Source: a virus
Strand: one strand, 5' to 3'
IMG/VR virus record: IMGVR_UViG_3300045454_000071
Coordinates: 1-32,388 of that record
Length of the DNA stretch: 32,388 nucleotides
Positions 7,695 through 31,361 of the stretch are shown one piece after another. The position numbers and the translations under genes are program-made. Each line of letters begins with the position of its first letter. The first letter of the stretch is position 1. The notes under the pieces were generated by a model that saw only the letters and a list, made by a program, of their open reading frames with translations, did not search any database and had not been told where the DNA came from.

Positions 7695-9644
7695 TCAGTT
7701 GAACCAGCGGCTACGGATGACGCGCCGGCCGGCTCTCGGTGTTCCAGAAACAGCGAGGCCACCGCGTTGGGTGGCCTCAGTGGGTTGCTCGATTTGCGGA
7801 TCGGAGTCGCCGGGCGGCGAGCGTCCGACCTGTCGTTCCAGTTCGCGCCAGTGCCGCTCCTCGAAGCGGTCGAGGCCGGCAGCACTCGCCGCCGCGCGGG
7901 CATACACGTAGCAGTCCAGGGCTTCGTTCCTCTCGCGCATCTTCTGCCACTCGCGCACCGGGTAGCCGTTGCGATCGCGCCGGGTGATCAGCTGCTCGGC
8001 GCACAATTGCTGCAGGTACTCGGCATCCACCTTGGGCAGATGGACGAAGCCGGTGGGGTAACGAATCGTGATGCCATCATCGGCCACCTCAGGCACCTTC
8101 CTCAGGCTGTTGTAGAACTCCAGCTTGGCGATGCCGACCGCGACGGTGAACAGCTTGATGCCCCGGCGCAGTTTCTTGCCGCCCGTCGTGGCGTCCACCG
8201 CCGTCGGCGAGCCCACCAGAGCCGGGCCCTTGGCAGAGCCCTTGACCGCCATCAAGCGAAAATCACGCGCCAGCCGCACGAAGGCATAGGCTTCCTGTGT
8301 CGCAAAGCCGGTGTCCAGCGCGAAGCGCGCCAATGGCATCAGCGCGCCTGTTTCGTGCTCCCATTGTTCGCCGAGCATTGCGCCAAGCTGCCGCCACACC
8401 TCATCGCGGGCGGTGTCGCCCATCAACACGCGATGCTCGACGAGCCACGATTCCTTGCCGCGCCCGAAGGCCCAGATGGAGACCTCGATGCGATCCTTCT
8501 GTACGTCGGCTCCACCCACGAGCAGCAAACCGCCCGCAGGCACAGAGCCAATGCGGTAATCCTCACGGCGCTCCAACAGGCGCTGCCAGTCGGGGGCTTC
8601 GCCCTCCTCGACCCAGGCCTCGCCCAGTTCCGAGTTCTTGAATGCCTTGATGGTCGCCACCGAGCGGCTCTCCGACATGGCGGCCTTCTCCCACGACGCC
8701 GCAATCTCACGCCACTTGCGCCAGGGGCTGTAGAGGCTCGACAGGTGAAACCCTGCGCTCGTTCCAATTCCTTGCGCCATCCATTCCCCAAGTTCCAGCA
8801 TCCGGGGTTTGTGATGCTCGGCAATCGCTGTTTCGCAGTCCTCGCAAAGATAGGCGGCGGTTTCCGGCTGCCCACGATCCCAGCGCAACCGTTCGAACCT
8901 CAACCACTGGCGGTGACCACAATGCGGGCACGGCACAAAGTAGCGGCGCTGGTCTGACGCCTCGTATTCCCGCTCGATGATGCTCGCCCCGGAGATGGTG
9001 GGCGTGGACACCAGCAGAATCTTGCGCCGCGCAAACGTCCGGGTGCGCGCTTCGGCCAGGTGGATCGCGTCGCCCTCGCCATCGACGTCCAGCGGATAGG
9101 CATCCACCTCGTCGAGGAAGAGATAGCGCACCGGCATCGAGCGCAGACCCACTGCCGAGTTGGCCCCGGTCATCACCAGCACGCCGCCGCGAAACTCCTT
9201 CATCAGCACCGTGTTGCCGGAATCTCGACTCCTCGGCGGGGCGATGATGTCCTTCAGTACCGGTGACTCCTCAATGAGGGGATCGATACGGTGCTTTGAG
9301 TTCCTCTGCGCCATCTCGGTTGTCGGCCAGACGATCATCATCGGGCCGGGCGCGTGATGGATGGCATAGCCCACCCAGTTGAGACCCAGTTCCGTGCCGC
9401 CCACCTGCGCCCCTTTCATGAGCACCACCCGCTCCACCTTTGATGCCGGGGACAGGCAGTCCATGATCTCGCGCAGATAGGGCGTGCGCGCATTGCGCCA
9501 GCGCCCGGGCTCGGCTGATTCCTTGGTCGAGAGCATCCGGTAGCGCTCGGCCCATTCGGATACGGTCAGGCGCGGATCCGGCCGCAGCCCTTCGCGCCAG
9601 GCGCGTTCGATCTCAAGCGCCCCTTCGTAATCATCCGCCTTCAT
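7695..9644 (-). CDS. Terminase large subunit, lambda gpA family
   Basis: This gene encodes 649 residues, as expected for Terminase_GpA (lambda 641). The N-terminal ATPase has MKGAQVGGTE (76-85) as the Walker A region and LFLDEVD (175-181) as Walker B. A zinc-binding insert has Cys239, Cys242, Cys267 and Cys270. The C-terminal nuclease begins near GADVQKDRIEVSIWAFGRGK and includes FALDTGFATQEAYAF. It cuts concatemeric DNA and pumps it into the prohead through the portal. GpA-type enzymes usually cut at cos sites, so this phage probably has cohesive ends; no cos site was identified. ATG 9644 overlaps the small-subunit stop (ATGA). Confidence 0.95.
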   Translation of the reverse strand: MKADDYEGALEIERAWREGLRPDPRLTVSEWAERYRMLSTKESAEPGRWRNARTPYLREIMDCLSPASKVERVVLMKGAQVGGTELGLNWVGYAIHHAPGPMMIVWPTTEMAQRNSKHRIDPLIEESPVLKDIIAPPRSRDSGNTVLMKEFRGGVLVMTGANSAVGLRSMPVRYLFLDEVDAYPLDVDGEGDAIHLAEARTRTFARRKILLVSTPTISGASIIEREYEASDQRRYFVPCPHCGHRQWLRFERLRWDRGQPETAAYLCEDCETAIAEHHKPRMLELGEWMAQGIGTSAGFHLSSLYSPWRKWREIAASWEKAAMSESRSVATIKAFKNSELGEAWVEEGEAPDWQRLLERREDYRIGSVPAGGLLLVGGADVQKDRIEVSIWAFGRGKESWLVEHRVLMGDTARDEVWRQLGAMLGEQWEHETGALMPLARFALDTGFATQEAYAFVRLARDFRLMAVKGSAKGPALVGSPTAVDATTGGKKLRRGIKLFTVAVGIAKLEFYNSLRKVPEVADDGITIRYPTGFVHLPKVDAEYLQQLCAEQLITRRDRNGYPVREWQKMRERNEALDCYVYARAAASAAGLDRFEERHWRELERQVGRSPPGDSDPQIEQPTEATQRGGLAVSGTPRAGRRVIRSRWFN

Positions 9645-10189
9645 CCGTCCACCTTCGGCACAAACTCGCCCAGTTCCTCGAGATGCACGCGCACGGCGAC
9701 GTCGAGCGCCACGAACAGGGTGTGTTCATCGATGCCCAGTTCCGCCGCGAGGATCGGCGTGATGCGATTCGGCCAGTTGATCCACGCCTCCCGTTCGGCC
9801 CGCGCCAACTTGAAGACGTGGGCGATGGCCTGCGACCGGTCGACCAGTTCCCCCTTGAGCTGCGCCAGGCGCACCTTGTTGGTCTGCGCCTTGACCACCT
9901 CGTTGACCGTGCGCGCCTGCAGCAGGGACGCGCCGCCGGCGGGCAAGGCAGTGTGGGTGTCGCCTGCGGGCGCGCTGGCGGCGGTCTCCTGCGGCACGGC
10001 GGCCCTGACGGGTTTGGCGCGAGTGCCCGCACGCGGCGCTTCGGTGTTCTTCGCCCATTCGGCGTCAGCCCGTTGCGGGTCGAGGGTGCCATCGGCCTCG
10101 GGCGTGATGCGCCCGCTATCAATCGCCTTCTTGACCGCCACGTGAGAGACGCCGCGATGCCGGGCGTAAGCGCGTATCGACAGACCCAT
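9641..10189 (-). CDS. Terminase small subunit (Nu1-like)
   Basis: This gene encodes 182 residues. The first 45 form a winged-helix or HTH segment, MGLSIRAYARHRGVSHVAVK then KAIDSGRITPEADGT, the pattern of Nu1-type DNA recognition subunits. A low-complexity alanine/proline linker follows, and the C-terminal half (VNEVVKAQTNKVRLAQLKGE onward) is helical and would contact the large subunit. It is the first gene of the late operon, so its promoter should lie in 10190-10302, shared with a divergent accessory gene. The ribosome site before ATG 10189 is weak. Confidence 0.8.
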   Translation of the reverse strand: MGLSIRAYARHRGVSHVAVKKAIDSGRITPEADGTLDPQRADAEWAKNTEAPRAGTRAKPVRAAVPQETAASAPAGDTHTALPAGGASLLQARTVNEVVKAQTNKVRLAQLKGELVDRSQAIAHVFKLARAEREAWINWPNRITPILAAELGIDEHTLFVALDVAVRVHLEELGEFVPKVDG

Positions 10190-10238: not shown

Positions 10239-10302
10239 CTTGGCTTTCCTCCACAGAAGCGCGTTCATGCCATCACCATCAACCACATTGCGGGAGACAA
10301 AC
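10239..10302 (+). repeat. Start-associated leader repeat, copy 1
   Basis: The 30-bp core is 10239-10268: CTTGGCTTT, six bases, then CAGAAGCGCGTTCAT. It is the most divergent copy in its middle but has the exact length. ATCAAC and GGGAG follow before ATG 10303, 34 bases after the core. It lies in the divergent gap upstream of the small-terminase gene. Confidence 0.8.
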
Positions 10303-10572
10303 ATGTACGCCGACAAATTGGACACCCTTGGCAAGAAACTGGCCGATACCGCCCTGACCCTGCTGGTACGCCTTTATCCGGAAGTGCGCACCGCGAGCAC
10401 CACGGAACTCGATGCCGCCTGCGCGGCGATGCGCGCCAGGTCAAGGTCGGTGATCGACGAGTTGATCGATGACGCCAAGGATGCACCCGGGGTGGCGCAC
10501 ATCGCGTTTCAGACCGCAGCCCTGACGCTCGCCCACGAAGGCATCCAGACACTCAAGGCAGGACGCAAATGA
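10303..10572 (+). CDS. Small accessory protein of unknown function (first of the leader-repeat set)
   Basis: This gene encodes 89 residues starting MYADKLDTLGKKLADTALTL. ATG 10303 is chosen because GGGAG stands eight bases upstream and because the repeated leader ends there; the longer frame to 10213 runs back through the leader. The protein appears all-helical (LADTALTLLVRLYPEVRT, then AACAAMRARSRSVIDELIDD) with no membrane segment and no catalytic motif. I do not recognise a family. After its TGA the same frame continues open through the next leader repeat and closes on the next gene's ATGA, which may be a relic of how the cassette arose. Confidence 0.7.
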   Translation: MYADKLDTLGKKLADTALTLLVRLYPEVRTASTTELDAACAAMRARSRSVIDELIDDAKDAPGVAHIAFQTAALTLAHEGIQTLKAGRK

Positions 10573-10596
10573 ATCTGCGAAGCCAGGCAGAAAGAG

Positions 10597-10661
10597 CTTG
10601 GCTTCCTGTTCGAACAGCGCCTGAATGCAATCGCCATCAACGCCAACCCAAGGAGACGACC
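10597..10661 (+). repeat. Start-associated leader repeat, copy 2
   Basis: The core is 10597-10626: CTTGGCTTC, CTGTTC, then GAACAGCGCCTGAAT, where the usual GTTCAT is replaced by CTGAAT. AGAAAG lies just upstream; ATCAAC and AAGGAG follow, and ATG is at 10662. Confidence 0.88.
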
Positions 10662-10850
10662 ATGACCAAGCAAGCCGCCCAAACCCTCGACCAGCAGATG
10701 CAGCAAATCGCGCTCGATCACCTGTCCATCGAAACCCTGGAAACCCGCAACAGCGACCGGATGGACTTCCACGAGGTCAGCGTCTGGGGCGTCAAGAGCG
10801 CCCTGATGGCCGCCTACGAAGCGGGCCGGCAGGCCGCGAAGCAGGACTGA
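10662..10850 (+). CDS. Small conserved protein, DUF6900-like
   Basis: This 62-residue protein starts MTKQAAQTLDQQMQQIALDH. The central block HLSIETLETRNSDRMDFHEV followed by WGVKSALMAAYEAG matches, as I recall it, a small widespread family annotated DUF6900 in plasmids and integrative elements; no activity is known. The start has AAGGAG eight bases upstream within the leader repeat, and a longer frame back to 10569 would pass through the leader and is rejected. There is no transmembrane segment. Both its neighbours carry the same leader, so the genes may be expressed together although each has its own ribosome site. Confidence 0.8.
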   Translation: MTKQAAQTLDQQMQQIALDHLSIETLETRNSDRMDFHEVSVWGVKSALMAAYEAGRQAAKQD

Positions 10851-10867
10851 AAAAGAAGCAGAAAGCG

Positions 10868-10931
10868 CTTGGCTTCACTCTCGAACAGCGCGTTCATGAC
10901 TACACCATCAACCACCACGAAGGAGCATCAA
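10868..10931 (+). repeat. Start-associated leader repeat, copy 3
   Basis: The core is 10868-10897: CTTGGCTTC, ACTCTC, GAACAGCGCGTTCAT. AGAAAGCG precedes it, giving a GCGCT/AGCGC pairing around TTC/GAA. ATCAAC and GAAGGAG follow and ATG is at 10932, 34 bases after the core, the same spacing as copies 1 and 4. Confidence 0.9.
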
Positions 10932-11480
10932 ATGACCACCATCCAACTGACCCCTGCCCAGCACGCCATACTCGCCTACGCCATCGAACACACCGGCGGC
11001 AAGATCGAACGGTTCCCCGACAACATCAAGGGCGGCGCCCGCACCAAGGTGCTGGATGCCCTGTTCAACAAGGCCCTGATCACCCGCGACAGCACCGACT
11101 GGTTCGTTGCGGCCGAGGGCTACGACGCCCTGGGGCGCGCCCGGCCGACGCCGGCCACCATTCACCCCGACCCCGAGGTCGAGGCCGCCGTGTCGGCCGC
11201 AGAGGCCAACTGGGCGCAAGAAAAACAGGACGCGGCCAAGCGCCTGCTCAAGGTCGGCGTCGAGGGCAAGCCCCGCACCCGCGAGAACAGCAAGCAGGCT
11301 GCCGTGATCCAGATGCTGCAGCGTCCCGAAGGGGCGACCATCAACCAGATCTGCGCGGCCACCGGCTGGCAGGCGCACACGGTGCGCGGCACCTTTGCCG
11401 GCGCGTTCAAGAAGAAACTCGGACTCACCATCTCCTCGGAAAAGTCCGAGGGCGGCGAACGCATCTACCGGGTCGGTTGA
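10932..11480 (+). CDS. DUF3489 domain protein (HTH-like C-terminus)
   Basis: This gene encodes 182 residues starting MTTIQLTPAQHAILAYAIEH. The C-terminal 60 residues, QMLQRPEGATINQICAATGW then AHTVRGTFAGAFKKKLGL, are the DUF3489 domain, which looks like a winged helix, so DNA binding is likely. The N-terminal 75 residues form a second small helical domain (LTPAQHAILAYAIEHTGGKI) and a charged linker joins the two. ATG 10932 has AAGGAG eight bases upstream. Such genes are common in plasmids, prophages and integrative elements, usually near other small orphan genes as here. A GC-rich hairpin follows the stop codon. Confidence 0.85.
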   Translation: MTTIQLTPAQHAILAYAIEHTGGKIERFPDNIKGGARTKVLDALFNKALITRDSTDWFVAAEGYDALGRARPTPATIHPDPEVEAAVSAAEANWAQEKQDAAKRLLKVGVEGKPRTRENSKQAAVIQMLQRPEGATINQICAATGWQAHTVRGTFAGAFKKKLGLTISSEKSEGGERIYRVG

Positions 11481-11489
11481 ATTCGAGAT

Positions 11490-11516
11490 GGGGTGGCGGC
11501 ATATCCACGCCACCCC
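11490..11516 (+). terminator. Strong hairpin after the DUF3489 gene
   Basis: A perfect 9-bp stem, GGGGTGGCG (11490-11498) with CGCCACCCC (11508-11516) and a 9-base loop, lies ten bases after the DUF3489 stop and 19 bases before leader repeat copy 4. There is no T-run after it, so it may be a Rho-type pause or a stabilising 3' end rather than an intrinsic terminator. Confidence 0.55.
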
Positions 11517-11535
11517 AACGCGATCCCTGAAATAG

Positions 11536-11599
11536 CTTGGCTTCCAGATTGAACAGCGCGTTCATACGAGCGTCATCAACGCAACCAGGAGCAACGACC
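11536..11599 (+). repeat. Start-associated leader repeat, copy 4
   Basis: The core is 11536-11565: CTTGGCTTC, CAGATT, GAACAGCGCGTTCAT. A TAG codon directly precedes it in the LGF frame, so this copy cannot be translated as part of a leader peptide from upstream. ATCAAC and AGGAG follow; ATG is at 11600, 34 bases after the core. Confidence 0.9.
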
Positions 11600-11932
11600 A
11601 TGAACACCGAAACCACCTGCCAAACCGGCCCACTCCGGGTTCGCTTTACGCGCAAGCCCGTCGACCTGCAGGAGGTGCTGACGGCCACGCCCTACGACGA
11701 ACGCCCGGAGCCGGTGGTGATCAGCGAAACCCGCGAATTGACCACCGCCGAGTACGATGTCTTCGCCAACACGCTGCTGCAGGATCGCGACTGGCTGGCC
11801 GGCAAGGGTGGGTACCCCGACCAGACCACTCGGCACGTCGTCGAAGTCAAGGCAGAAGATCGCAAGACCCTGTACGTCGACCCCTCGGGCAGCGCCTACG
11901 GGCGTTACGTCGGAATTGCCGTAGAAGCCTGA
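11600..11932 (+). CDS. Accessory protein of unknown function
   Basis: This gene encodes 110 residues starting MNTETTCQTGPLRVRFTRKP. ATG 11600 has AGGAG upstream in the repeated leader. The sequence suggests a small alpha/beta protein: VVISETRELTTAEYDVFANT, then LLQDRDWLAGKGGYPDQTTR and a C-terminal strand pair HVVEVKAEDRKTLYVDP. No Cys/His metal site, nucleotide motif or membrane segment is seen. I do not recognise a characterised family. The frame remains open after the TGA stop through the next leader, one ATG (11936) lying only four bases beyond the stop. Confidence 0.75.
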   Translation: MNTETTCQTGPLRVRFTRKPVDLQEVLTATPYDERPEPVVISETRELTTAEYDVFANTLLQDRDWLAGKGGYPDQTTRHVVEVKAEDRKTLYVDPSGSAYGRYVGIAVEA

Positions 11933-11950
11933 AAAATGATTCAGAAAGCA

Positions 11951-12016
11951 CTTGGCTTCTCAATCGAACAGCGCGTTCATACGGGTGTCGCAACGATCAA
12001 CCCGAAGGAGAAAACG
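11951..12016 (+). repeat. Start-associated leader repeat, copy 5
   Basis: The core is 11951-11980: CTTGGCTTC, TCAATC, GAACAGCGCGTTCAT, preceded by CAGAAAGCA. ATCAAC and GAAGGAG follow and ATG is at 12017, 36 bases after the core. Here the LGF frame is in frame with the downstream gene, with an ATG at 11936. Confidence 0.9.
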
Positions 12017-12385
12017 ATGACCACCACCAACACCATCCCCGCCACCCAAAACGAAGCCTGGGGCTTTTGGGGCACGATGAACAACGACGCCCAAGCCGCC
12101 TGGCCCATCGCGATGACTGCGATCTCGGACGCCACCTGCCAGCCCCTCGAATCGGTCAGGGCCTTCCTCGACAGCCGCCACGGGCGGCACTTTGCCGACG
12201 ACGTGCTCAACGAGATGCTCCGGGGCCACGCGATCCAGCAGGCGGTCGACGCGGCAGTTGCCCGCTGGATGGGTTGGACGATTGGCCGCCAGACCAGCAG
12301 GGAGTACGGCATCCCCAAGGGCCTACCCTACCTGACGGGCTTTGTGATTCACTGCGAGATCGTTGATGAGGCTCTAGCCGCCTGA
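12017..12385 (+). CDS. Conserved accessory protein of unknown function
   Basis: This gene encodes 122 residues starting MTTTNTIPATQNEAWGFWGT. Conserved-looking blocks are AWGFWGTMNNDAQAAWPIAM, FLDSRHGRHFADDVLNEM and GIPKGLPYLTGFVIHCEIV; I have seen this type of protein as an uncharacterised neighbour of DUF3489 genes in mobile elements. ATG 12017 is preferred over the in-frame ATG 11936 because AAGGAG lies seven bases before it and the upstream segment is the repeated leader. Its last 12 bases overlap the end of the opposing regulator gene, so the two transcripts converge. Confidence 0.8.
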   Translation: MTTTNTIPATQNEAWGFWGTMNNDAQAAWPIAMTAISDATCQPLESVRAFLDSRHGRHFADDVLNEMLRGHAIQQAVDAAVARWMGWTIGRQTSREYGIPKGLPYLTGFVIHCEIVDEALAA

Positions 12386-21903: not shown

Positions 21904-22725
21904 TCAGTGATGGATGGCGGCGTTGTCGCCAGCGCATTTGCGGATGAGCTTCAAAAGGTTCGGCTCCTCGACGAGGTCGAGTCGGCCGGATCGGTCTTTG
22001 GCGGGATAGCCCCAAGGATTGAGCGTCTGGCAGACGAAGGCGCGGTAAAGCTCTCCCTCGTCGGTCTTGAGTTCGGCCAGCGTCACGACCTCATCGACGA
22101 TGCCGGGCAGTTCCAGCGCGGTCTTCGAGCCCTCGATCTGCGGCACGAAGACCCTGCGGTTGAAATCGTCCAGGCGCTCGTCGAGGATGGCGACGAAGAT
22201 GACGTTCTTGTCCCGCGCGTGCTGCAGATGGGTCAGTGCGGCGATCATCTCGGTGCCGAGCAGCCCGTAGGCGCCCCGGGTGTCGGGCTTGCCGGTGCGG
22301 TCGGAGAAGGCCTGCGGCTGCGCCTTGGCCCAGGTCAGGCACAAGCGCGAGAGCACGGTGATCGAGTCGACGAAGTAGGTGTCGTACTTCGCCAGCCGGG
22401 CCGGGTCGCCGTAGCCTTCGCAGACGTGCCGGTAATGCGCATCGGAGAACGGCGCATCGGGCGGCAGTGCCAGATTCGGGCCGGCGAGGAAGACCACCAG
22501 GTCGCGGAACTCGGGCCAAGTGGCAGGCCGCACGCAGTCGCCACGCCAGGCCTTGACGGCAAGATCGCCGGCCTCGAGATCGACAAACAGCGTCGACGCC
22601 TCGGGCAGGGTGCGTAGCTGGCTGGTCTTGCCGATACCACTCTTGCCGAGCAGCGTCAGCTTGGCTCCGCTCTTTTCCGCGAACCGTTCGTCGGCGGTGA
22701 TGATGCGAAGAGGCTTGTCCATCAT
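21904..22725 (-). CDS. RecA-like/AAA ATPase (AAA_24 type)
   Basis: This gene encodes 273 residues starting MMDKPLRIITADERFAEKSG. The Walker A motif GKSGIGKT lies at 27-34, STLFVDLEAGD near 45 is typical of phage nucleotide-binding proteins of the AAA_24 family, and DTYFVDSITVLSRLCLTWAK near 135 holds the Walker B aspartate. It would load or move a recombination protein on DNA. GGGAGG stands four bases before ATG 22725, which overlaps the BRO gene stop. Confidence 0.85.
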   Translation of the reverse strand: MMDKPLRIITADERFAEKSGAKLTLLGKSGIGKTSQLRTLPEASTLFVDLEAGDLAVKAWRGDCVRPATWPEFRDLVVFLAGPNLALPPDAPFSDAHYRHVCEGYGDPARLAKYDTYFVDSITVLSRLCLTWAKAQPQAFSDRTGKPDTRGAYGLLGTEMIAALTHLQHARDKNVIFVAILDERLDDFNRRVFVPQIEGSKTALELPGIVDEVVTLAELKTDEGELYRAFVCQTLNPWGYPAKDRSGRLDLVEEPNLLKLIRKCAGDNAAIHH

Positions 22726-28497: not shown

Positions 28498-28689
28498 ATG
28501 AAGAACCTCGAACTCGCATCACCCTCGGAGATGTCCGCCAGCGCCCGCGCAGGCGAAATCACCTCCATCCTTGCTGCCGCCATCGTTCGCACACTCGTCG
28601 CGGATGAGCCAAAACAGAGAGCAGTTGGACTTGGCTTCCTGCCCGACCAGCGCGTTCATACAACCCCCTATCAACAGGAGAAGTTGTGA
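28498..28689 (+). CDS. Small ORF before the DUF2924 gene; C-terminus is the repeat core
   Basis: This 63-residue protein starts MKNLELASPSEMSASARAGE, with GGAG seven bases before ATG 28498. AGEITSILAAAIVRTLVADE is a helix like that in small proteins often seen just before DUF2924-recombinase operons, which end in a similar LDF..EQ.GH sequence. Its C-terminus LGFLPDQRVHTTP is encoded by the core of leader repeat copy 6. Its TGA (28687-28689) overlaps the ATG of the DUF2924 gene, so translation is coupled. This may be the ancestor of the leader repeats. Function is unknown. Confidence 0.65.
   Translation: MKNLELASPSEMSASARAGEITSILAAAIVRTLVADEPKQRAVGLGFLPDQRVHTTPYQQEKL
28630..28688 (+). repeat. 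Start-associated leader repeat, copy 6
   Basis: The core is 28630-28659: CTTGGCTTC, CTGCCC, GACCAGCGCGTTCAT. ATCAAC and AGGAG follow; the ATG at 28689 is 29 bases after the core. It is 16.6 kb from the cluster and is the only copy within a plausible reading frame. Confidence 0.88.
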
Positions 28690-29138
28690 TGAACGAGAAA
28701 CAAGCATCCATCGCCGCCCGGATCTCCGAGCTGGCCTGCCTGCCGATGTCCGAACTCTGGTCGCTCTGGGATCGGTACTTTCCCCGCCGCCCGGATTATC
28801 CGAATCGCACGCACGTCGAGTCGCGCATTGCCTACAAGCTGCAGGAGGAAGCCTTCGGCGGCCTCGCCCCCGAGACAAAGCAGCGGCTGGAAGCCATCGG
28901 TGCAAAGCACTCCAAGATCAAGCTGCGCGCCAAGCCACGTGAATTCAATTTCGCGCCGGGCACGGTGATTCTGCGCGAATGGGGTGAGCGCGAGCACCGG
29001 GTAACGGTCAATGCCGAGGGCCGTTTCGAGTACGAGGGCCACACCTTCAAAAGCTTGACGGCGGTGGCCCGGCACATCACTGGCCAGCACTGGAGCGGGC
29101 CGCTGTTCTTCGGCTTCGGCAAGGGAGGTACGCGATGA
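28689..29138 (+). CDS. DUF2924 protein
   Basis: This gene encodes 149 residues starting MNEKQASIAARISELACLPM. LPMSELWSLWDRYFPRRPDY, VESRIAYKLQEEAFGGL and the C-terminal region FNFAPGTVILREWGEREHRV with EYEGHTFKSLTAVARHITG and HWSGPLFFGF are typical of DUF2924. This family regularly stands immediately before large serine recombinases in prophages and may help DNA recognition or integration; the role is not proved. The start is ATG 28689 (GTG 28686 in frame is possible), with AGGAG eight bases before it. Its stop overlaps the recombinase ATG. Confidence 0.88.
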   Translation: MNEKQASIAARISELACLPMSELWSLWDRYFPRRPDYPNRTHVESRIAYKLQEEAFGGLAPETKQRLEAIGAKHSKIKLRAKPREFNFAPGTVILREWGEREHRVTVNAEGRFEYEGHTFKSLTAVARHITGQHWSGPLFFGFGKGGTR

Positions 29139-30514
29139 ACGAAATCGCCAGCACCAAGACTCGCAAGCGCTGTGCCGTCTATTGCCGGGTATCCACGGAC
29201 GAACGTCTCGATCAGGAATTCAACTCCATCGACGCACAGAAGGAGGCGGGCCACGCATACATCGCCAGCCAGCGAACCGAGGGCTGGATTTCGGTCGCGG
29301 ACGACTACGACGACCCCGGATTCTCCGGCGGCAACACCGACCGCCCGGCCCTCAAGCGATTGCTGACCGACATCGAGCGAGGCCAGATCGACATCGTGGT
29401 GGTCTACAAGATCGACCGCCTGACGCGCAGCCTTGCCGACTTCTCCAAGATGGTTGAGGTGTTCGAACGCAACGAGGTGTCCTTCGTATCGGTCACCCAG
29501 CAATTCAACACCACCACCCCGATGGGGCGGCTGATGCTGAACGTCCTGCTGTCCTTTGCCCAGTTCGAGCGCGAGGTCACCGGCGAGCGTATCCGCGACA
29601 AGATTGCGGCTGCCAAGCGCAAGGGAATGTGGATGGGTGGAGTGCCATCCATCGGCTACGACGTCGTGAACCGCCAACTGGTCATCAACGAAGCCGAGGC
29701 GGCAGTGGTACGCCGCATCTTCGAGGAAATGCTGACCATCGGCTCGCCGACCCAGATCGCCGCCAACCTAACCGCCGAAGGCATCACCACCAAGGCCTGG
29801 ACGACACAGGAGGGCCAGACCCGCAGCGGCACCCGCATCGACAAGAAGTATCTGCACAAGCTGCTGCGCAACCGCATCTATCTGGGCGAGCTGTCGCACA
29901 AGGGAAACTGGTACCCCGGCGCGCATCCGCCGATCATCGACCAGGCGCTCTGGGACAAGGTTCACGCGGTGCTGGCCAAGAGCGGCCATGCCCGGTCGGT
30001 GGAAACCAAGATCCGGTCACGTACTGACGCCTTGCTGCGTGGCCTGCTGTACGCCCCTTCGGGCGAACGCATGTACCCGACCTACTCGAACAAGAAGGGA
30101 CACAAGTATCACTATTACGTGTCCAAGTCCGAAAGCCGCTTCGGCGCGCCGGGTAAGAGCTACGAGCGCCTGCCTGCACCGGAGATCGAGGCAGCGGTGG
30201 TCGCCCAAATCCGCACGGTGCTGACCAGCCCGGAATCCATTGCGTCGGTGGTTCGCCACATTCAGCGCAACGGGGCTGAAATTGACGAGGCCAGCACGGT
30301 GATGGCGATGGGTCGTCTCAACGACGTGTGGGATCACCTGTTCCCGGTCGAGCGCCACCGCATTGCCAACCTGATGATCGAGCGCATCGACCTCGTCCAC
30401 ATCGGCGAGGTACAAGGTATCAAAGTGAAGTGGCGGGAACTGGGCTGGGACAAGCTGATCGGCGAGTTCGCACCGAGGGAGATAGGCGCGGAACTGATGG
30501 AGGTCGAGGCCTGA
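29135..30514 (+). CDS. Large serine recombinase (probable prophage integrase)
   Basis: This gene encodes 459 residues. The N-terminal resolvase domain has the catalytic Ser20 in VYCRVSTDE and conserved GFSGGNTDRPALKRLL and YKIDRLTRSLADFSKMVEVF. From about residue 155 the recombinase domain follows (GMWMGGVPSIGYDVVNRQLV). The zinc-ribbon position reads LLRGLLYAPSGERMYPTYSN: its cysteines are absent, which recurs in this subgroup. It would exchange DNA between attP and attB by a serine-linked intermediate, requiring a directionality factor for excision. It overlaps the DUF2924 and the next gene, so the operon is coupled. Confidence 0.93.
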   Translation: MNEIASTKTRKRCAVYCRVSTDERLDQEFNSIDAQKEAGHAYIASQRTEGWISVADDYDDPGFSGGNTDRPALKRLLTDIERGQIDIVVVYKIDRLTRSLADFSKMVEVFERNEVSFVSVTQQFNTTTPMGRLMLNVLLSFAQFEREVTGERIRDKIAAAKRKGMWMGGVPSIGYDVVNRQLVINEAEAAVVRRIFEEMLTIGSPTQIAANLTAEGITTKAWTTQEGQTRSGTRIDKKYLHKLLRNRIYLGELSHKGNWYPGAHPPIIDQALWDKVHAVLAKSGHARSVETKIRSRTDALLRGLLYAPSGERMYPTYSNKKGHKYHYYVSKSESRFGAPGKSYERLPAPEIEAAVVAQIRTVLTSPESIASVVRHIQRNGAEIDEASTVMAMGRLNDVWDHLFPVERHRIANLMIERIDLVHIGEVQGIKVKWRELGWDKLIGEFAPREIGAELMEVEA

Positions 30515-30876
30515 TGGATAGCTCGCTGGAAACTTTCGTGCCCCTCCAGTTCAAGCGGAAGAAGGGAAAGCTGCTGGTCGACGGGAGGGAATCTGCCCAC
30601 GACGTCCGGATCATCGAGGCCGTTGCTCGGGCCATGTACTGGCACGACCTGCTCGACTCCGGGGCGTTCAAGAGCGTGGTCGAGATCGCCCGGGCCGAAG
30701 GTTTGATGCCGACCACGGTAGGCCGACTGCTGCGGCTGGCGCGGCTGGCCCCCGACATCATCGAGCAGTTGATGCAGGGATGCCAGCCACGAAGGCTGAC
30801 CCTGCTGTGGCTGATGCGAAACGACATCCCGGCCCTCTGGCCTGAACAGCGCCAGATGCTTGAACGATTCCGGTAG
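30514..30876 (+). CDS. Recombinase-operon HTH protein A
   Basis: This gene encodes 120 residues starting MDSSLETFVPLQFKRKKGKL. Its ATG overlaps the recombinase TGA (TGATG). The HTH SVVEIARAEGLMPTTVGRLL then RLARLAPDIIEQLMQGCQP looks like the KorB/ParB-type HTH. LETFVPLQFKRKKGK is repeated in the next gene, which is paralogous. It may be an accessory or directionality factor for the recombinase, or a regulator. Confidence 0.8.
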   Translation: MDSSLETFVPLQFKRKKGKLLVDGRESAHDVRIIEAVARAMYWHDLLDSGAFKSVVEIARAEGLMPTTVGRLLRLARLAPDIIEQLMQGCQPRRLTLLWLMRNDIPALWPEQRQMLERFR

Positions 30877-30884
30877 GAGGCGAA

Positions 30885-31361
30885 ATGACCAGCAAGAAAC
30901 ACTATGGCAAGCAGACAGGTCGCCCCATCACCCATGAACTCCCTACGCCCGCCGGTGGTGTGCGACTGGAGACCTTCGTCCCCTGGACGCTGGTAAGGCG
31001 AGGGTTGAAGAAGCGGGTCATCACGCCATTGGACGCGCCGCAGGAATTCTTGGCAGAGGCCAAGCAGGAGCGTGCGGCTCAGGCGGCGGCGCAGGATAGC
31101 GCGCTGATGCGGGCGCTCGGACTGGCACACCATTGGCAGCGCCTTCTGGACGAGGAGCGCGTCACCTCGTTGACCGAGATCGCAATGGCCGAGGGTATCG
31201 ACCTAGCTCAGGCCAGCAGGATCATCCGTCTGACACAGCTCGCCCCCAGTCTGGTCGAGGCCATTACGGCGGGCCACCTCGAAGTGGGTGTAAGTCGATT
31301 GCTGCGCGGCAAGCTGTTCGAATCCTGGCAGGCCCAACGCAAGGAACTAACAGGTTGCTGA
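30885..31361 (+). CDS. Recombinase-operon HTH protein B (paralogue of A)
   Basis: This gene encodes 158 residues starting MTSKKHYGKQTGRPITHELP. RLETFVPWTLVRRGLKKRVI and the HTH SLTEIAMAEGIDLAQASRII then RLTQLAPSLVEAITAG parallel those of protein A in order and spacing; the N-terminal 25 residues and an Ala/Gln-rich insert are extra. GGAGG precedes ATG 30885, eight bases after the protein A stop. Tandem duplication with divergence is the simplest origin; they may form a heterodimer. Function is not known. Confidence 0.78.
   Translation: MTSKKHYGKQTGRPITHELPTPAGGVRLETFVPWTLVRRGLKKRVITPLDAPQEFLAEAKQERAAQAAAQDSALMRALGLAHHWQRLLDEERVTSLTEIAMAEGIDLAQASRIIRLTQLAPSLVEAITAGHLEVGVSRLLRGKLFESWQAQRKELTGC

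Follow-up and report, generated by a model that had tools for sequence, protein, structure and literature searches.

A 30-nt repeat ahead of small phage genes, and over the end of a small gene before DUF2924, as a probable promoter element

Why should one short sequence stand, always in the same orientation, ahead of several small phage genes and again within the end of another gene? The question is raised by the window (the whole 32,388-nt stretch of DNA analysed here), a virus record of 32.4 kb from IMG/VR whose genes include those for phage head and packaging.

Copies of the core in the window and beyond

A pattern scan of the window locates six copies of a 30-nt core, CTTGGCTTNNNNNNNNAACAGCGCGTTCAT, all on the + strand and differing slightly from one another: five precede the small genes of an accessory array (10239–12385), and one lies within the 3′ end of an ORF at 28498–28689. 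The 30-nt pattern itself has 5 matches in the window against 0.01 expected by chance. The array is antiparallel to its neighbours, with methyltransferase/ParB-like genes and terminase genes as its flanks. An earlier note on this DNA had read the six cores as variants of a peptide LGF..QRVH, and each was recovered with the translation given there.

10239..10268, +, core 1, first of the accessory array, reads LGFPPQKRVH
10303..10572, +, array gene 1 (phrog_36268), start 34 nt after core 1
10597..10626, +, core 2, variant CAGCGCCTGAAT, reads LGFLFEQRLN
10662..10850, +, array gene 2, DUF6900 (PF21841, by Pfam), start 35 nt after core 2
10868..10897, +, core 3, reads LGFTLEQRVH
10932..11480, +, array gene 3, DUF3489 (PF11994, by Pfam), start 34 nt after core 3
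11536..11565, +, core 4, reads LGFQIEQRVH, with a TAG abutting its 5′ side in the LGF frame
11600..11932, +, array gene 4 (phrog_21303), start 34 nt after core 4
11951..11980, +, core 5, reads LGFSIEQRVH
12017..12385, +, array gene 5 (phrog_8020), start 36 nt after core 5
28498..28689, +, small protein gene, 63 aa, unnamed family (by homologues, dN/dS and a kept frame), core in its 3′ end
28630..28659, +, core in the 3′ end of the small ORF, before DUF2924, reads LGFLPDQRVH, start codon 29 nt downstream
28689..29138, +, DUF2924 gene (PF11149, Pfam 4e-47), start overlapping the small ORF's stop
29135..30514, +, large serine recombinase (Resolvase, Recombinase and zinc ribbon, by Pfam), in one operon with DUF2924

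Beyond the window, pattern scans place the core in at least 120 stretches of viral contigs, plus many genome contigs among the matches listed, the genome contigs having been scanned with a looser pattern that includes chance matches. About 390 distinct copies were analysed, and leaders were also gathered through the proteins that they precede, as a guard against bias from the search pattern. In the leaders of array-gene families the core scored in 504 of 578, against 0 of 578 shuffled sequences. Of the 74 core-less leaders, 51 sit within 40 nt behind an upstream stop, and among the other 23 several have a miscalled start or a diverged core; array genes have either a core of their own or a place just after the gene before them. 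Cores are present in every one of the 24 long DUF3489 records searched, and in most of those that also contain DUF2924 a core lies shortly upstream of it. The position relative to start codons, seen directly across the ~390 copies, is mostly 33–37 nt from the end of the core to the start.

Two settings recur. The first core of an array often has a divergent gene beside it, with the start codon ~50 bp away, in the window that of the terminase small subunit (9641–10189, −) beside the 10239 copy, and this short distance leaves little room for another promoter. Other cores come directly after the stop of a co-directional gene, as the earlier note had remarked for the 10597 copy, which begins 24 nt past its neighbour's stop codon.

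The small gene before DUF2924 and the coding question

The proposal that the stop of the small ORF is coupled to the DUF2924 start is borne out by the overlap of its TGA with the ATG at 28689 (TGATG), and the ORF has a plausible ribosome site. Homologues ahead of DUF2924, which the earlier note had asked for, were collected from Acidithiobacillus phage AcaML1 (Gp5), ~70 viral contigs and many proteobacteria: their indels are whole codons that leave the frame intact, and the N-terminal part has a dN/dS of 0.33. The frame is also kept in strongly diverged phage operons, where the small ORF ends LGFxxx[QE]RV[HN]x[ND]P, and in DUF2924 operons of other proteobacteria outside the core lineage, where the homologue reads MTxEERLDExAxILAxG..RL and ends LDKxxxQ[CSRW][PV][YH]G in unchanged register. 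Profile comparison with these core-less relatives gave 98% probability and an E value of 1e-13, a figure that spans the whole protein and would be weaker for the C-terminal part by itself. At the thresholds used, no family of Pfam, NCBIfam or PHROG covers the small ORF. This comparative evidence indicates that ORF 28498–28689 is a true small gene, coupled to that of DUF2924, and that its product is one of a widespread family of unnamed proteins of 60–75 aa. In many proteobacteria the genes of this family immediately precede DUF2924, and the family is here revealed as tied to DUF2924 and serine recombinases.

The arrangement in AcaML1 is that of the window: gp5, which encodes a homologue of 63 aa, contains the core at its 3′ end, three further cores each head a small gene, and gp3/gp4 are the counterpart of the window's operon, in which the DUF2924 gene adjoins that of the large serine recombinase. 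From 22209 downwards on the − strand, AcaML1 also has an unannotated 80-aa ORF, with a core ahead of it at 22244–22273, that by eye resembles the DUF6900 gene of the window; the published annotation of this region is a terminase small subunit gene on the opposite strand. Several genomes have DUF3489 immediately ahead of DUF2924, in the place taken elsewhere by the small ORF. Beside the large serine recombinase of the window stand two adjacent small genes (30514–30876 and 30885–31361), each matching phrog_14161, annotated as recombinase, and likely a duplication.

Are the leader copies, then, decaying relics of this gene, its 3′ end and coupled ribosome site having been copied as a ready-made translation leader? 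The leaders do share sequence with the 3′ end of the small gene. That gene is real, its conservation runs deep, and the profile comparison given above aligns its C-terminal LxxxxxQxxH with the core-less relatives. The leaders themselves, however, are not decaying: every codon position is conserved. Across ~390 copies the frame of the next start relative to the core is random (125/113/129), and in 184 of 390 an in-frame stop lies no more than 60 nt upstream; in the window, the TAG directly before the 11536 copy was confirmed in the sequence. Codon-position bias across many copies, which the earlier note had named as the sign to look for, is absent. In the protein-anchored leaders an excess of third-position variation was sought and not found, third positions being conserved like the others: minor-base frequencies at codon positions 1/2/3 are 0.007/0.004/0.012 in DUF3489 leaders and 0.117/0.079/0.056 in those of the 12017 gene family. 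The conservative substitutions once taken as a trace of protein selection are what any frame of a strongly conserved nucleotide string gives. Because next-start frames are random, stops common and third positions conserved, the relic reading fails: the leader copies are not coding relics and carry no mark of past or present protein selection, and the proposal of a copied translation leader that left decaying coding relics is very improbable. Of the view that only the 28630 copy lies in a good ORF, the real 63-aa ORF stands, but the 11951 copy lies in an open frame as well, and may be part of a 149-aa ORF that begins at 11936 and continues into the next gene.

Even within the real ORF, selection on the core acts mainly at the nucleotide level. 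Among 58 distinct small ORFs gathered via DUF2924, synonymous diversity falls from 0.356 at the N-terminus to 0.083 in the core and 0.013 in QRVH, where non-synonymous diversity (0.032) exceeds it; these values are pairwise counts on related sequences, which show the contrast and not exact rates. It is this drop that places the constraint on the core mainly in its nucleotides.

Promoter-like anatomy of the core

Anatomy was derived from 109 diverse leaders, in which conservation of sequence and fixed spacing are directly visible. The core runs G-CTTGGCTTY, 6–7 variable bases, GAACAGCGC and then a hexamer, GTTCAT or GTTACT, whose last T (T29) is invariant. TTGGCT and the hexamer are separated by a 17-nt spacer, in which GAACAGCGC is almost invariant; a near-invariant GAACAGCGCGTT likewise falls in the spacer region. 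Positions 35–37 are Y-R-Y in 97/88/91% of leaders, and past the core end follows T-poor sequence with a ribosome site. Upstream, AT-rich peaks at −6..−4, −18..−15 and −29..−25 of the core are ~11 bp apart. With position 36 as +1, TTGGCT occupies −35 to −30, the hexamer −12 to −7, and the AT tracts lie near −41, −52 and −63.

This is the geometry of a −35 element, 17-nt spacer and −10 element, although GTTCAT is a poor σ70 −10 (T where A−11 is expected), and a simple σ70 scan does not call the core sites. A plain σ70 promoter, moreover, would not need the near-invariant GAACAGCGC. The poor −10 together with the nearly invariant spacer block makes a special sigma factor or an activator likely. 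Promoters of the σ54, σ32 and ECF types were rejected on unfit spacing or invariant bases. Among the papers listed in a literature search for the motif letters, the only match was the unspecific CTTGGCTTC, and the right-hand block (GAACAGCGCGTTCAT or AACAGCGCGTTCAT) appears in none of them.

The core could instead work as RNA: once transcribed, it would be the binding site of a phage or host factor in antitermination or translational control, much as a dispersed mRNA operator would be. Its fixed orientation, near-fixed distance to the start codon and frequent place straight after a co-directional stop would suit such a role, and a protein-read single-stranded RNA motif would, as an argument against a promoter, likewise give unstructured conservation in fixed orientation. 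An inverted repeat GAAGCCAAG..CTTGGCTTC lies upstream and forms stems of at least 10 bp in 93 of 390 copies against 2 of 390 shuffled, which also speaks for this role. RNA folding of the leaders, by contrast, gave nothing (z 0.06) and no consensus structure; a candidate GAAC/GTTC hairpin within the core is broken without compensation in the DUF2924 copies (A17 to C, T25 fixed); and a spacer of fixed length and variable sequence, with helically phased AT tracts, is a feature of DNA. We consider an RNA leader unlikely. Nor could a role as translation leader, as first suggested, be demonstrated, RNA fold z being ~0 and the conserved geometry promoter-like; Rfam has no family matching the core. 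The inverted repeat spans −18..+8 of the core, which forms its 3′ arm, and is not an intrinsic terminator, since no T-run follows.

Counterpart elements and comparable systems

Core-less DUF2924 operons show a nucleotide constraint of their own at the corresponding place: across diverse sequences the H/Y-type codon has T as its third base in 90%, compared with 40% in comparable ORF codons. In core-less genomes the leaders of some DUF3489 genes are non-coding and contain the counterpart element in the register of the core, made up of TTGATA or TGGATA, 17 nt, then CTATAT, CTTAAT, CTGTAT, CTTCAT or CCTTAT (in combinations such as TTGATA-17-CTTAAT, TGGATA-17-CTATAT and TTGATA-17-CCTTAT), and the idea that such genomes carry it only at the DUF2924 junction (25/25 sites) was dropped when these leaders were found. 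Their TTGATA is near the −35 consensus; these elements appear closer to a textbook promoter and support promoter function. Because this second lineage has its own version at both the gene end and the non-coding leader, either site could have come first, and copying could have run in either direction. Six sequences of another DUF3489 leader lineage have another motif in common, GCTTGGGGTCGTAGAAGG.CGC, which may represent a third form of the element.

The same counterparts bear on whether the core, without being a promoter itself, is an operator at which a phage repressor or regulator binds the DNA. The near-invariant GAACAGCGCGTT would agree with an operator, but the orientation is strict, as is the register relative to the start codon, and the homologous elements resemble −35/−10 hexamers at 17-nt spacing; these features argue against it, and we regard this as the least probable of the readings considered.

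The repeat is probably a dispersed promoter, or a promoter with a bound activator, of a temperate-phage regulon that comprises the accessory array and the DUF2924–recombinase operon. RNA polymerase would engage the AT-rich tracts centred near −41, −52 and −63 and contact the −35 element (TTGGCT here; other lineages have TTGATA or TGGATA); beyond the 17-nt spacer would come the −10-like hexamer (GTTCAT/GTTACT here; CTATAT, CTTAAT, CTTCAT or CCTTAT elsewhere), with transcription starting at the YRY ~7 nt downstream, the putative start site, to give an unstructured leader of 25–30 nt with a ribosome site. That transcription initiates here, its exact start, and the reading of the core by a sigma factor or activator are what we infer from sequence. 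At sites other than DUF2924 the promoter would be non-coding; at DUF2924 it would overlap the 3′ end of the real small gene, an overlap of core and gene that is itself directly observed, and those codons would therefore be doubly constrained, a clean case of a regulatory element over coding sequence. Hundreds of motif copies would mark a regulon of small phage genes (DUF3489, DUF6900, DUF2924 and others), and a known promoter would show when they act and help to find unannotated ones. More tentatively, many proteobacterial phages and integrated elements might share this regulon, a dedicated transcription factor or sigma-like specificity reading the promoter before each accessory gene and the DUF2924–recombinase operon, element and reader co-evolving by lineage (TTGGCT/GTTCAT versus TTGATA/CTATAT), with the DUF2924 copy embedded in the end of the conserved small gene.

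Cluster K mycobacteriophages have SAS/ESAS, asymmetric repeats just upstream of the starts of many unrelated small genes and mostly in one orientation, about half with an extra upstream inverted repeat and with function unproved (PMC3203893). The core is similarly an asymmetric, one-orientation repeat ahead of unrelated small phage genes. It differs from SAS in both sequence and position: SAS is GGGATAGGAGCCC, in other hosts and immediately upstream of the start codon, whereas the window core lies ~34 nt upstream, at promoter spacing.

Mobile regulatory cassettes of T4-type phages (PeSL), reportedly described by Arbiol et al. in 2010, are said to consist of an early promoter and a stem-loop repeated between small accessory genes and are proposed to ease gene shuffling. 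The core likewise is repeated between such genes, as a probable promoter element. The T4 promoters, however, are recognisable early σ70 promoters of a lytic phage, whereas the −10 of the core is unusual, and one core overlaps a gene. Each PeSL copy is said to have a stem-loop along with its early promoter; among the cores only the minority of copies noted above has a long stem. Bacteriophage morons are accessory genes with their own promoters among late genes; the window differs in having several consecutive genes with one common element, which is also present at the recombinase operon.
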